Assembly: GCA_902774285.1 (NCBI GenBank) | Contig: CACYHO010000001.1 | Span: forward strand, 328,077 to 392,076 | Length of the DNA: 64,000 nt | DNA from: an uncultured Pseudomonadota bacterium | GTDB lineage: Bacteria > Pseudomonadota > Alphaproteobacteria > Rs-D84 | Direction of reading: 5' to 3' | Shown: positions 10,194-49,261 of the stretch, one piece after another | How the letters are laid out: every line of letters starts with the position of its first letter | How positions within the stretch are numbered: the first letter of the stretch is position 1 | Translations under genes and position numbers: made by a program | Notes under the pieces: generated by a model | The model's input: the letters and a program-made list of their open reading frames with translations, nothing else | The model's database searches: none | What the model was told of the DNA's origin: nothing

Positions 10194-10964
10194 TTATTGG
10201 TTTGATTCCATACTGTCGTCAAAGACACAATAAGTGTTATTTCCAAAACTGACTTTTAATTTTCGTTCGGTTTGAATATTCATTGGTGTATCAGATAAAC
10301 TCATATTCGCAGAATAAATATTTCCATTAACCCTGGTGTATAAACGATGTTCGGTTGGGTGCGCTGGCGATTGATGCATATACATAACATAATCGCCCAA
10401 ATGTAATTTACGACCACATTGCGATTCCAACCACATACCAGCCGGGGCAAATGGGTGATTCTCTGGACAAGATATGATTCCTTGTGGGGTTGTTTCATTA
10501 AATGTTAAATTTCCACCGGGGCAATAGTTATTTTGTGGACATTGGGTACAAGCATCAACATTCGCCGGTAAATAATACCCCAGTGAACAATTATGAATAT
10601 TTGGTGTAAATGTAGCAGTAATATTGGCTATATTGTTATAAGCACGTAAAAAATTTTCTTTACAACCATTCCTTATATTTTCTGTAACTTGGGTTTTGAA
10701 TTTGTTCCCTTGGTCATACTCTTCATTAAAATAAAAAGTTCCACCATTACAATCATAAACATCTGGACACACAACACAACCATCATTATTGGCTGGCACA
10801 TAATATCCAGAACCACATTGATATTGATTTGGTGTAAAGTTAGCCCATAAGTAAGTATCAGTATTCAAACCAGACGAACAACCATTTGGAATGTTTGACA
10901 TAATCAAATCGTCTGCAAATGCAGATATGGGCATTATTAAAAATAATAACCATTTGTATTTCAT
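10194..10964 (-). CDS. Exported Cys-rich repeat protein, second gene of secreted module A
   Basis: A 256-residue protein with a signal peptide (ending AFA) and two imperfect copies of a Cys-rich unit: FTPN...C..GYY.PAN.D.C..CP....C.GG...FNE. The C-terminal domain contains CPENHPFAPAGMW, SQCGRKL and YMHQSPAHPT. The same order and nearly identical C-terminal motifs recur in the protein encoded at 48449-49261. The paired cysteines suggest disulfide-stabilised repeats on a cell-surface or secreted protein. The start ATG overlaps the stop of the upstream gene (TAATG), so the two are translationally coupled. Its function is unknown; nothing catalytic is visible. Confidence 0.75.
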   Translation of the reverse strand: MKYKWLLFLIMPISAFADDLIMSNIPNGCSSGLNTDTYLWANFTPNQYQCGSGYYVPANNDGCVVCPDVYDCNGGTFYFNEEYDQGNKFKTQVTENIRNGCKENFLRAYNNIANITATFTPNIHNCSLGYYLPANVDACTQCPQNNYCPGGNLTFNETTPQGIISCPENHPFAPAGMWLESQCGRKLHLGDYVMYMHQSPAHPTEHRLYTRVNGNIYSANMSLSDTPMNIQTERKLKVSFGNNTYCVFDDSMESNQ

Positions 10965-11722
10965 TATTGTAAAACTGAACCTGCTATAAATTGCCCTGTG
11001 CCTTGGTTATAGAAAAATTGTTCTGTCACTTTGTCGTACATACATGGAGTGCCATCTTTATCAAGAACAGGGATAAAATCACGAACAAGGGTATTGTTGT
11101 CGTAGATTTTACAGTAATAAATACGACAGAAGCCAATATTAACGTTTGTTGGCCTTTTGTCCGCAAACAAACACATATTATAAGGAGAAATAAAATCATT
11201 ATTATTTGATGATAACACAAAATATGTATCGTTATTGTTGTACGCGTATTGAACGTTACGGCCATACCAATTGACAGTAAAAGGATTTGCTCCTGGTAAT
11301 GATTGTGCTGTGACACCAGAATAAATAAACTGCAAAGTACCACCCCAAATATATAATTCAAACGATTTTGAATGGGCACTTTCTCCGGAACCAAAAAAAA
11401 TATTTTCTGCTGATAAATCGTTTTTTGTGTTTTGTATTTTTATTTCTATCCCTGTAAGATTATTTGGAATATATCCTGTATCAATATACTGGGTACCTGT
11501 AGATTCCAAATATTCAATTGGTCTATAACTAGCAAGTTTCCAGCCTGTAAAAGTATAACCGTATTTTGTTGGTGGGGTGGATGGTAAAATTAAATCACTG
11601 TTAATTTCACATGTTGAATCTTGGTATGTTGTTCCGTCATAATTTAACCAATGCAGGTTTATTGTATCTGCAAATGCAAAACCGATAAACAGTAATGATA
11701 ATAATACAATAAACCGTTTCAT
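10964..11722 (-). CDS. Exported protein with InlB-type repeat and LamG-like domain, first gene of secreted module A
   Basis: A 252-residue protein. I chose the ATG at 11722 because it has the site AGGGGG and opens directly into a signal peptide (MKRFIVLLSLLFIGFAFA); the frame extends further upstream but only into the RNA leader. After the signal comes a short Listeria-Bacteroides (InlB B-type) segment with PPTKYGYTFTGW. A concanavalin/LamG-like domain follows, opening IEYLESTGTQYIDTGY. The C-terminus reads MYDKVTEQFFYNQGTGQFIAG. A homologue lies at 47685-48449 with the same ends but a strongly divergent middle. It may bind a carbohydrate or surface ligand; this is inferred from the folds only. 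Confidence 0.75.
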   Translation of the reverse strand: MKRFIVLLSLLFIGFAFADTINLHWLNYDGTTYQDSTCEINSDLILPSTPPTKYGYTFTGWKLASYRPIEYLESTGTQYIDTGYIPNNLTGIEIKIQNTKNDLSAENIFFGSGESAHSKSFELYIWGGTLQFIYSGVTAQSLPGANPFTVNWYGRNVQYAYNNNDTYFVLSSNNNDFISPYNMCLFADKRPTNVNIGFCRIYYCKIYDNNTLVRDFIPVLDKDGTPCMYDKVTEQFFYNQGTGQFIAGSVLQ

Positions 11723-11743
11723 TTGATGTTTCCCCCTGAATGC

Positions 11744-11948
11744 AAATAAAAAGACCGCCAAGAAAATGGGCGGTCGGGGAGTTAGCAATAACACATTAAA
11801 TGTTCCGTTCCCTTACGGTAAAACGGCTCCCCAACCGTAAGGTCAGGGATGATAACGGCGCAAAAAGCACCGACAACATCAGATTTACGATGCTTTCGCA
11901 CCGAATGTGTAGGCTTGCTACAGCCCCGAACCCAATCCCTTGGATTCA
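11744..11948 (-). promoter_or_regulatory. Structured RNA leader A, candidate cis-regulatory element
   Basis: About 200 nt upstream of secreted module A, homologous to the leader at 47410-47628. On the minus strand it folds into GAATCC/GGGTTC, GGCT/AGCC, CGGTGC-GAAA-GCATCG, CGGTGC/GCGCCG and a 9-bp CCTTACGGT/ACCGTAAGG helix whose loop holds GGGGAG. The matching CTCCCC lies at 11781-11776, directly beside a terminator hairpin. Every helix is kept in copy B despite sequence change. It does not match any riboswitch class I can recall. It could instead be an independent small RNA. Confidence 0.65.
11748..11775 (-). terminator. Terminator-like hairpin at the end of leader A
   Basis: The stem GACCGCC/GGCGGTC has a 9-base loop and five T residues on the minus strand. 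It ends about 25 bases before the start codon of module A's first gene, so it would stop transcription before the gene unless it is overridden. Confidence 0.75.
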
Positions 11949-12030
11949 TGTCAATTTTATCATAAAATTCAAAAATTAACAATGCTTTTTCGCTTGCGCA
12001 AAAAAGTGAAAAATATTATAATATTTCCGC

Positions 12031-30955: not shown

Positions 30956-31589
30956 AAAATGTATATCTTAATCCTATGCGATTTAATAATATGTGTGATA
31001 ATGCTTCTGTATCTGTCTTTAAAAATTTCATGCTGATACTTAATCCAAAACCGCGGGCATCTTCCGCAAGATATTCTATCTTTGCACCATAAAAATTGCC
31101 AGTATCTTTTATGTCCGTGTTTATAAATTCGGGCGTATATGTTGATCTGATTGTTCCTGCATCCAAACCAAGTACTATAAACACTTGCTGTCCATCTTGT
31201 TCATCTATTCTGATATAATTATCAAATTCTGCGCCAAATAAATTATGTGAAGTGTCTATATTAAATTTTGTGCTGCCATACGCAGAGGCCACATCTAATT
31301 TTGCATCCCCTGTCACATGATTATAAAACATTTGGATACCAGGATGATAAATATGAGAATCATCAAGAAATCGTATTCCAAAATTTCCACCATACGTGAA
31401 ATTCATACCATCAGAAGATAATGTACTGTATGGGACACCGTATTTTTCCATGACACCATTATTTTGTGCATTAACAGTTGCGCCCATTTCAGCAGTTATA
31501 AACGGGTGTATTTTATTAAAAATTTGTGATGCAAAAGACTGTTGTGAACATATTGCGCAACACATGCCGATAAAAAATAGTTTTTTCAT
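30954..31589 (-). CDS. Outer-membrane beta-barrel protein (opacity-type)
   Basis: A 211-residue protein with a signal peptide (to about residue 20, ending FAS), alternating hydrophobic strands and the C-terminal motif GLRYTF, with the terminal Phe needed for BAM-mediated insertion. Size and strand count suggest an 8-stranded barrel such as OmpW or opacity proteins. AAAGGATAA precedes the ATG. Its most notable feature is the structured leader at 31615-31770, which suggests that expression responds to some signal. Confidence 0.78.
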   Translation of the reverse strand: MKKLFFIGMCCAICSQQSFASQIFNKIHPFITAEMGATVNAQNNGVMEKYGVPYSTLSSDGMNFTYGGNFGIRFLDDSHIYHPGIQMFYNHVTGDAKLDVASAYGSTKFNIDTSHNLFGAEFDNYIRIDEQDGQQVFIVLGLDAGTIRSTYTPEFINTDIKDTGNFYGAKIEYLAEDARGFGLSISMKFLKTDTEALSHILLNRIGLRYTF

Positions 31590-31614
31590 TTTGTTATCCT
31601 TTTTTTATTAAAAT

Positions 31615-31770
31615 AACCGCCACAAAAAAGGCGGTTGGAGGTTAAGAACTATAATTACTAGAAAATAGCGTGCCTATTTTATCAAAAGATATTATTCGGC
31701 AACCCTCCAACCATATAAACGATTGGAGGTGTTTTTTGTCCCCACGGACACTAGTAATTTAGGGTTCTTA
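31615..31770 (-). promoter_or_regulatory. Structured leader C, switch-like (riboswitch or attenuator candidate)
   Basis: On the minus strand a 16-bp closing helix (TAAGAAC...AATTACTAG with CTAGTAATT...GTTCTTA) encloses three hairpins: TGTCC/GGACA, CCTCCAATC/GGTTGGAGG and AAAATAG/CTATTTT. A terminator-like stem AACCGCC/GGCGGTT (31636-31615) follows. CCTCCAACC at 31641-31633, overlapping that stem's 5' arm, is perfectly complementary to GGTTGGAGG of the middle hairpin, so two folds exclude each other. It lies about 25 bases upstream of the outer-membrane protein start. The ligand is unknown. Confidence 0.65.
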
Positions 31771-31861
31771 CGCCCAACACAACTTATTGTGCTGATTACA
31801 GAGTAAAATACTTGTATTATAAAATCAAGAATTTATTGCTGATATTAAATATATTTTGGTT

Positions 31862-47409: not shown

Positions 47410-47628
47410 TGAATCCAAGGGATTGGATTCAGGGCTGTCATAAGCCAACTTTGTCCGGTGCGAAAGCATCGTTATCTGATGTTATCGGTGTTTTTTTGCA
47501 CCGTTATCATCCCTGATTGTTATGGTCGGGGAGCCGTTGGTTATAAAATACGAGCAATCGAAAGACCGCGGAATCAATGACAAAGTGATTTATGAACTCC
47601 CTGACCGCCCTTTGAGACGGTCTTTTTT
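47410..47628 (+). promoter_or_regulatory. Structured RNA leader B, candidate cis-regulatory element
   Basis: Homologue of leader A (11744-11948, minus strand). Helices: GAATCC/GGATTC (47411-47430), GGCT/AGCC (47433-47446), CGGTGC-GAAA-GCATCG (47456-47471), GATG...CATC enclosing CGGTGT/GCACCG (47478-47511), and TTATGG/TTATAA (47520-47546), whose loop holds GGGGAG. CTCCCT (47597-47602) can pair with that loop. A terminator-like hairpin GACCG/CGGTC with six T residues ends it at 47628. Compensatory differences from A support the fold. Function unknown. Confidence 0.65.
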
Positions 47629-48449: not shown

Positions 48450-49261
48450 TGAAAAAGATATTTGTATCTTTGTTGTTTATATTTGTTATGCAAAATGCAT
48501 TGGCGGTATTGTACACAAACGATATTTCAAATGGATGTATAAATTCTGTTATTCATCCTTATAATAATAATGCAGAAATGACGGCACGTTGGACACCGAA
48601 TACACATACATGTAATGTTAACGAATTTTTACCCGCAAATACAGATGCTTGCGTTGCGTGTCCAATGGGGCAAACATGCACCGGTGGAACATTTGATTTT
48701 AACGAAACAGAACCCCAAGGAATCACATACACCACACCAATATTGTATAATCAAAATAATTCTTGTGTTAATGAATTATTAAAACCAAGTGATAACACTT
48801 CGTATATGATGGCCAAATTTACACCAAATGTTCATAATTGTAATCCGGGATATTATTTACCGGCAAATATTGACGAGTGTAGGAAATGTTTGAACGACCA
48901 TTATTGTCCTGGTGGAACTTTGACATTTAACGAAACAACACCACAAGGAATAATAGATTGTCCAGAAAATCATCCTTTTGCTCCGGCTGGTATGTGGCAA
49001 CAATCACAATGTGGTCGAAAATTATATGTTGGCGAAGATATTTTATACATGCACCAATCACCAGCACATCCAACAGTCCATAGATTATATATTGGTCACC
49101 CTAATGGTATATATTCGGCAAATGCAGTCCAACGGGATATGAATTCAAATACTTTTCCGAAAATGTCAGAAGGTATGTCAAAAGGATTTCATGTAAAGAT
49201 AGATGGTGTTGAATATTTGGTATGTGATGATTCCATTCCAGAATGTAGAAACGGCCAATAA
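48449..49261 (+). CDS. Exported Cys-rich repeat protein, second gene of secreted module B
   Basis: A 270-residue homologue of the 10194-10964 product, with a signal peptide ending in ALA and two Cys-rich units (FTPNVHNCNPGYYLPAN and CPMGQTCTGG-type). The C-terminal domain has the same CPENHPFAPAGMW, SQCGRKL and YMHQSPAHPT blocks, which are the best conserved part between copies. The overlapping start makes it translationally coupled to the LamG-like gene. The pair probably acts together at the cell surface. Confidence 0.75.
   Translation: MKKIFVSLLFIFVMQNALAVLYTNDISNGCINSVIHPYNNNAEMTARWTPNTHTCNVNEFLPANTDACVACPMGQTCTGGTFDFNETEPQGITYTTPILYNQNNSCVNELLKPSDNTSYMMAKFTPNVHNCNPGYYLPANIDECRKCLNDHYCPGGTLTFNETTPQGIIDCPENHPFAPAGMWQQSQCGRKLYVGEDILYMHQSPAHPTVHRLYIGHPNGIYSANAVQRDMNSNTFPKMSEGMSKGFHVKIDGVEYLVCDDSIPECRNGQ

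Follow-up and report, generated by a model that had tools for sequence, protein, structure and literature searches.

The C4 RNA of phages P1 and P7 (RF01695) precedes an antirepressor operon and carries strands complementary to the ribosome-site region; a further pair of target strands lies upstream. In the accessible text of PMC12197685, the c4 RNA blocks translation of ant near its ribosome site, and c4 and the 24B_1 RNA are both described as acting on antirepressor genes (PMC12197685, PMC10732415). The latter, from phage Phi24B, is an 80-nt precursor, its gene lying between lom and vb_24B_43, with a proposed role in control of the antirepressor d_ant (PMC10732415, PMC12197685). A further family, sRNA-Xcc1 (RF02221), is annotated as a stand-alone, trans-acting sRNA. 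In a Xanthomonas integron cassette, it is found upstream of symE (PMC12444791, in part). For Xylella vesicles, a trans-acting role is discussed, and the RNA is also proposed as a vesicle cargo that acts in plants (PMC12189769, in part). Rfam 15 lists two extra covarying pairs for this family (PMC11701678, in part). Among open-licence PMC papers, we found none that treats sRNA-Xcc1 together with an antirepressor, and no description of the full leader, the double pairing, or the Enterousia set reported below.

Here we analyzed a leader in a stretch of 64,000 nucleotides (the window) from the genome of an uncultured alphaproteobacterium, which we infer to belong to the genus Candidatus Enterousia. 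A first-pass annotation of the window had proposed a pseudoknot next to a terminator just before a start codon.

RESULTS

Architecture of the leader in copy A

The leader studied, copy A, is described in Table 1 together with its further copies in the window. The first-pass annotation held that GGGGAG (11832-11827) is fully complementary to CTCCCC (11781-11776), which abuts the terminator just before the start codon. Reading the minus strand, we found this complementarity to be exact, with CTCCCC adjoining the 5' arm of the terminator-like hairpin and the ATG located downstream. The full match is longer and comprises the strands that we call mid and S, which form 10 pairs, one of them G-U; as a result, four bases of the 5' arm of the terminator are also taken. 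Copy B, for which the same arrangement had been claimed, indeed has it (GGTCGGGGAG/CTCCCTGACC). Conversely, the description of GGGGAG as a hairpin loop did not hold for the family, as the 9-bp hairpin CCTTACGGT/ACCGTAAGG of copy A shows little conservation (pairing in 410 of 654 cells; at least 6 of the 9 pairs in 36 of 90 rows). What is kept instead is the neighboring 4-bp stem at the base of P6. The T run that had been noted after the terminator is present in copy A and imperfect in many other copies: at least five consecutive T within 9 nt 3' of the hairpin were found in 49 of 88 leaders, a count from which 11 of 99 leaders were left out because their S pattern was unmatched.

Table 1. Positions of the leader copies, their parts, and adjacent features in the window.
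Feature	Positions	Strand	Description
Leader RNA, copy A	11748..11947	-	Starts with the first base of 5' hairpin P1, ends with the T run
-10-like box	11954..11959	-	TAAAAT, read in the sequence; P1 begins 6 nt further on
P1, 5'-terminal hairpin	11928..11947	-	GAATCCAA/TTGGGTTC; 8 pairs, 96.5% paired, both-side changes at 5 pairs (90 leaders)
P2 hairpin	11911..11926	-	11926-11923 with 11914-11911, L2 in the loop; 97.1% paired, both-side changes at 2 of 4 pairs
L2, loop strand	11915..11920	-	TAGCAA, partner L2' (11788-11783); 91.8% paired, both-side changes at 4 of 6 pairs
J	11904..11910	-	ACACATT, partner J' (11797-11791); 90.1% paired, both-side changes at 7 of 7 pairs
P3 region	11856..11903	-	Hairpins 11903-11888 (100.0% paired) and 11872-11856 (98.7% paired), largely invariant; joining sequence around CTGATG is conserved
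P5a, alternative partner of mid	11842..11848	-	CCCTGAC; main helix 94.9% paired, both-side changes at only 1 of 6 pairs
mid	11827..11836	-	GGTTGGGGAG, includes GGGGAG; pairs with S
P6 hairpin	11805..11826	-	Base CCGT/ACGG; 99.1% paired, both-side changes at 4 of 4 pairs
J' and L2'	11783..11797	-	J' 11797-11791, L2' 11788-11783; covariation, own-versus-swapped tests
S, switch strand	11772..11781	-	CTCCCCGACC; complementary to mid, P2 5' arm, terminator, and Shine-Dalgarno sequence
Terminator-like hairpin and T run	11748..11775	-	GACCGCC (11775-11769)/GGCGGTC (11759-11753), TTTTT (11752-11748)
Shine-Dalgarno-like sequence	11731..11736	-	GGGGGA; complementary to CTCCCC of S
Start codon	11722-11720	-	ATG, with GGGGGA in front
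Gene behind copy A	10964..11722	-	Secreted-looking protein, Listeria-Bacteroides repeat
Leader copy B	47411..47626	+	R1 E 3.8e-62; paralogous gene from 47685
Leader copy D, diverged	31611..31794	-	mid GGTTGGAGGG, S ACCTCCAACC; R1 E 7.7e-9

Of 95 leaders, 67 have a TATAAT-like box (at least 5 of 6 matches) immediately 5' of P1, compared to 19.9 expected from shuffles, and the transcript of copy A probably starts near 11947, as suggested by its own -10-like box. The start codon usually lies about 16 to 40 nt past the hairpin. The fold of the whole copy A leader had a z score of -5.34 relative to dinucleotide shuffles. The calculated energies of the individual pairings were -18.5 kcal/mol for mid:S, -13.8 for P5a:mid, -11.3 for P2a:S, -11.4 for the terminator, and -10.3 for S with the Shine-Dalgarno (SD) sequence, values that leave every one of the rival pairings in play.

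Covariation of the fold

We aligned 90 unique leaders from 94 references (alignment A2; four near-duplicates were left out) and derived from them a covariance model of 43 pairs, R1. The compact pseudoknotted fold, composed of P1, P2, L2:L2', J:J', the two P3 hairpins, P6, and mid:S, had 96.0% of its 4,100 cells paired, compared to 85.3% in shuffles, none of which equalled the real fold. Changes on both sides of a pair were seen at 27 of 46 pairs and in 455 cells (17.9 and 130.6 in shuffles), and covariation was 0.366 versus 0.165. Slid versions of the fold reached at most 46.2% paired cells and a covariation of 0.082. The mid:S helix by itself was 97.0% paired (94.4% shuffled), with both-side changes at 5 pairs versus a shuffle mean of 2.0, a count reached by 2 of 500 shuffles; slid by 1 to 3 columns, it never rose above 57.5%. 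The helix GGUUGGGGAG/CUCCCCGACC covaries and is incompatible with part of the terminator stem, and the terminator-like hairpin (7 pairs) is 91.2% paired, with both-side changes at 4. S and the 5' arm of P2 could pair in 97.2%, yet both-side changes occurred at one pair only. Wobble pairs are kept, with G-U in 88 of 90 leaders at one pair and U-G in 63 of 90 at another.

The helices L2:L2' and J:J' ranked top by mutual information in a separate alignment of 73 leaders. We also compared each strand with its own and with swapped partners, using the 24 distinct of 82 Enterousia leaders. L2 and L2' scored 14.8 with their own partner and 10.2 when swapped, and for both this helix and J:J' none of 2,000 permutations was as high. 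In the further leader types B and C of the genus, J' and L2' likewise match their own upstream strands (0 of 2,000 permutations). The first-pass annotation had overlooked these two main helices, along with the relationship to RF02221 and to phage elements and the match of S to the ribosome site. Taken together, these comparisons show that the leader, as judged from its alignment, is a real and widespread RNA with a predicted pseudoknotted fold that covaries.

The P3 hairpins, one with a GAAA loop and one with a U-run loop, can alternatively be drawn as one long hairpin with GAAAGC paired to the U-run, and the alignment fits both. By eye, a U-run 3' of a hairpin was seen at the place of P3 in phage-type elements, too. 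We also considered an integron attC site, since the 5' strand of the leader resembles an attC end; the covariation of the leader as an RNA speaks against it.

Copies and distribution

In the genus, R1 matched 115 of 123 genomes (E <= 1e-4), defining a leader class of about 200 nt with at least 903 matches and a median of 6 per genome, the 8 genomes without a match being counted in. Eight genomes had at least 19 matches, and the complete genome G080 had 24 copies when every candidate was scored. Scored in the same way, the genome of the window has 4 copies, three of which (A, B, and D) are inside the window; copy A matched with an E value of 3.3e-54 (G000:C1:339825-340023, window 11749-11947). 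A DNA search recovered three strong copies in this genome; of 192 relatives, 98 had matches. The P3 pattern was found in 115 stretches of the genome contigs, 75 of which were leaders by profile, and the remainder resemble chance matches. Outside the genus, R1 matches were also detected: at E <= 1e-3, 25 of 289 genomes of the class had a match, 22 of them outside the genus.

Inverted arms at 10339-10624 and 48804-49089 are 77% complementary; the genes next after the leader genes of copy A (10194-10964, minus strand) and copy B (about 48680-49100, plus strand) are paralogous as well, a pattern that would fit joint duplication of a leader with two genes. The 5' part of an Enterousia leader stands at the end of a contig titled Oscillospiraceae (Firmicutes) (L197, 122-1, minus strand); this is either a mis-binned contig or a transfer. 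In a contig of a viral collection, near the contig end, the last 150 nt of a leader (L258, 13455-13244, minus strand) are identical to those of the bacterial loci L055 and L254; this is either a prophage or misclassified bacterial DNA.

Genes downstream of the leader

For the gene behind copy A, the PF09479 match (E 3.3e-5, 24.4 bits) is below the curated cut-off of 27. Copy D sits before a gene for a secreted-looking protein that starts at 31589. Pfam searches were performed with 85 of 94 downstream proteins, nine being left out (near-duplicates, one very long protein, and doubtful starts). Listeria-Bacteroides repeats were found in 8 and outer-membrane barrels in 3; EcoRI-type, N6, and C5 DNA methylases, family-2 glycosyltransferases, and ankyrin repeats were found in 2 each; many proteins had no match. 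By a simple heuristic, 59 of the 85 have an N-terminal hydrophobic stretch, compared to 141 of 402 other frames (p 1e-8). Enterousia leaders thus appear to precede accessory genes, mostly for predicted exported proteins, with some for DNA methyltransferases and glycosyltransferases. In G080, four paralogous small cysteine-containing secreted proteins (MKKHLIIAGIIC...; L429, L432, L435, and L437) each have their own leader.

The Shine-Dalgarno sequence follows strand S

The SD sequence tracks S: CUCCCC occurs with GGGG, CCUCCUG with CAGGAG, and CCUCCAACC with GGAGG. Within 16 nt upstream of the start, GGGG was present in 37 of 82 genes behind leaders versus 15 of 179 other genes, start codons being approximate in both sets. 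The further leader types carry compensating changes in mid and S (type B, GGTCAGGAGG/CCTCCTGACC; type C, GGTTGGAGG/CCTCCAACC), and their patterns match 28 and 55 of 117 genomes, respectively; a control pattern read backwards matched 0 of the 117. Among the loci retrieved, a CAGGAG SD preceded 19 of 33 type B, 1 of 34 type C, and 1 of 91 type A genes (B versus C, p 5e-7), GGAGG preceded 10 of 34 type C versus 3 of 91 type A genes (p 1e-4), and GGGG preceded 39 of 91 type A versus 14 of 67 type B and C genes (p 0.004). CAGGAG is absent from 14 of the 33 type B genes, some of whose start codons are probably misassigned. That SD type follows S type is what pairing between S and the SD predicts; joint copying or descent of leader and SD could partly account for the link.

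Since S has possible partners both in the leader interior and at the ribosome-binding site, the leader resembles an RNA switch. Most likely, S chooses between the leader interior and the terminator or SD. As in transcription attenuators and riboswitch platforms, successive strands are mutually exclusive and a terminator-like hairpin stands before the gene; here it is followed by a U-tract and partly excluded by the upstream mid:S helix, and termination is predicted. The leader differs from such systems in that it is pseudoknotted, in that S also matches the SD, in that it lacks a recognized leader peptide or ligand, and in a gene set that does not form a single pathway. The earlier interpretation as a riboswitch expression platform or antitermination site is partly supported: the conserved leader before a gene, the predicted GGGGAG/CUCCCC pseudoknot, the partial exclusion of the terminator, and the U-rich tail agree with it.

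Relatives in Rfam and in phages

The sole Rfam lead for copy A was RF02221 (24.3 bits, E 0.038), below the gathering cut-off of 53 bits; the entire model (1-87) aligns to window 11836-11764. The best genus copy in the scan, L057, scored 44.1 bits (E 1.6e-4), again below this cut-off, and further genus copies scored 42.5 and 39.7 bits, while types B and C had no RF02221 match at E values up to 1. In three genomes (G328, G367, and G082), RF02221 and R1 match the same element, which in G328 scores 56.2 bits, above the cut-off, and an R1 E value of 6.9e-16. RF02221 matches were found in 36 of 289 genomes of the class (E <= 1e-3), 47 of 299 of the phylum (E <= 1e-4), and 0 of 14 control genomes. 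The leader and RF02221 have in common the mid-to-S closing helix around the inner hairpin, in model order, and mid:S and P6 covary; RF02221 differs in covering the 3' half alone. By these alignments, the 3' half of the leader is homologous to RF02221. That the leader stands immediately in front of start codons speaks for cis action over an independent trans-acting sRNA. A 1.4-Mb alphaproteobacterial genome (G225, loci L122-L134) has 13 RF02221-like leaders, many before members of one family of small related proteins.

A pattern for the inner hairpin matched at least 120 stretches in viral contigs, 95 of them unique among the matches listed, and a plasmid of Azospirillum. The viral stretches inspected precede frames that, judged by eye from their N termini, look like phage antirepressor, BRO-N, and KilA-N proteins; in Acinetobacter phage 4316, the match lies 81 to 117 nt upstream of an annotated KilA-N gene. 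From the 95 viral elements, 80 with a usable start gave 45 distinct ones for strand-specific swap tests. Own pairs scored higher than swapped pairs, with 0 of 2,000 permutations as high, for J' with the SD region (16.60 versus 11.32), L2' with L2'', which immediately precedes that region (15.40 versus 11.83), J' with the upstream leader (17.64 versus 14.48), L2' with the upstream leader (17.20 versus 14.53), and mid with S (24.71 versus 16.89). A negative control gave 1,514 of 2,000 permutations as high, and an earlier permutation test with wide windows had given weaker signals. P5a:mid was not significant in the phage set (135 of 2,000), and we regard this pairing as weak. J' and L2' of the phage elements consequently have two rival partners, one over the ribosome site. 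In Enterousia, 1,847, 1,993, and 1,500 of 2,000 permutations equalled or exceeded the own match of J' and L2' to the downstream region, and in types B and C the number was 337 of 2,000, while the upstream pairing has lost none of its strength (0 of 2,000); the phage mechanism is therefore not simply retained. Together, these tests show that S and, in phages, J' and L2' have mutually exclusive predicted partners that include the ribosome site.

In comparison with C4, the strands complementary to the ribosome-site region are J' and L2' in phage-type elements and S, not J' and L2', in Enterousia, where, in contrast to C4, pairing would stay within one leader. C4 itself had no Rfam match on copy A (E up to 10) or on 35 other loci (E up to 1). 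For 24B_1, short BLAST matches to lambdoid and toxin-converting phage records suggest that it may be the same element. Two further candidates were rejected. IsrK/anrP was just a weak Rfam match in L057, outside the leader. A link to aba of the KilA-N-like prophage defence protein BstA was dropped, as aba is DNA-based and the accessible text of PMC8585504 describes no such leader.

DISCUSSION

We consider it likely that the leader is a cis-acting regulatory 5' leader RNA in which competition for S among mid, the SD, and the terminator would switch expression, in a direction that we infer as follows. While S is held by mid, the SD would be free and the 5' arm of the terminator partly occupied, and the gene would be on. 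Once released, S would pair with the SD, or the terminator hairpin would form, or both, and expression would drop. The phage relatives may follow the same logic through J' and L2', for which the rival partners would be upstream leader strands and the SD region of a KilA-N- or antirepressor-type gene. In Enterousia, the leader appears to have multiplied and now stands before many accessory, mostly exported, proteins.

A doubtful though serious alternative is a C4-like antisense precursor, the mid-to-S domain of which, released by cleavage or by termination, would target in trans the ribosome sites of antirepressor-type mRNAs, with the Enterousia copies as its descendants. The size of that domain agrees with the 88-nt sRNA-Xcc1 mapped by 5' and 3' RACE (PMC2996969, in part), transcripts of seven homologues are reported from Xylella in the accessible text of PMC12189769, and the phage-type J' and L2' are complementary to the SD region of the gene that follows, much as c4 acts near the ribosome site of ant. 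Against this, J' and L2' of Enterousia match their own upstream strands rather than the downstream region, the elements stand directly before a gene and pair in cis, and Rfam scans of the tested elements gave no C4 match.

It is unlikely that the leader is a ligand-binding riboswitch, with P1, P2/L2, J, and P3 as a putative aptamer and S, the terminator, and the SD as its expression platform. One fold that seemingly serves two platforms (SD pairing in phages; terminator and S:SD pairing in Enterousia) recalls riboswitch classes, as does the near-invariant P3 region in Enterousia, but the downstream genes have no common pathway and, by eye, the conserved joining sequence was not seen in the phage-type elements inspected. 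We hold a constitutive structural leader, such as an mRNA stabilizer or antitermination element that does not switch, to be quite improbable; the stable 5'-terminal hairpin, the strong fold, and the very mixed gene set would suit it, yet it leaves unexplained both the complementarity of S to mid and SD and the agreement of SD type with S type. A DNA element, for example a recombination site or cruciform repeat, is hardly credible in spite of the many copies at unrelated loci and the sRNA-Xcc1 cassette in Xanthomonas integrons (PMC12444791, in part), given the maintained wobble pairs, the 5' end fixed by a -10-like box, and the location of copies just before start codons.

Returning to the cis-acting leader, we tentatively propose, as a reading that may well prove wrong, that a phage antirepressor riboregulator was taken over by a small-genome gut genus and multiplied genome-wide, with as many as two dozen leaders, alike in switch strand and trigger but each with private helices, together setting which surface-protein and DNA-modification genes are expressed. 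If this takeover is true, the sRNA-Xcc1 family would be a fragment of a leader class and not a set of trans-acting sRNAs. RF02221, which has been studied as trans-acting virulence sRNAs, would then largely be the core of cis-acting leaders, and this would change how the data on it are read. The leader would also serve as a test case for the conversion of a phage control element into a bacterial regulon, and the competing pairings of this very strongly covarying RNA would be open to simple reporter mutations.
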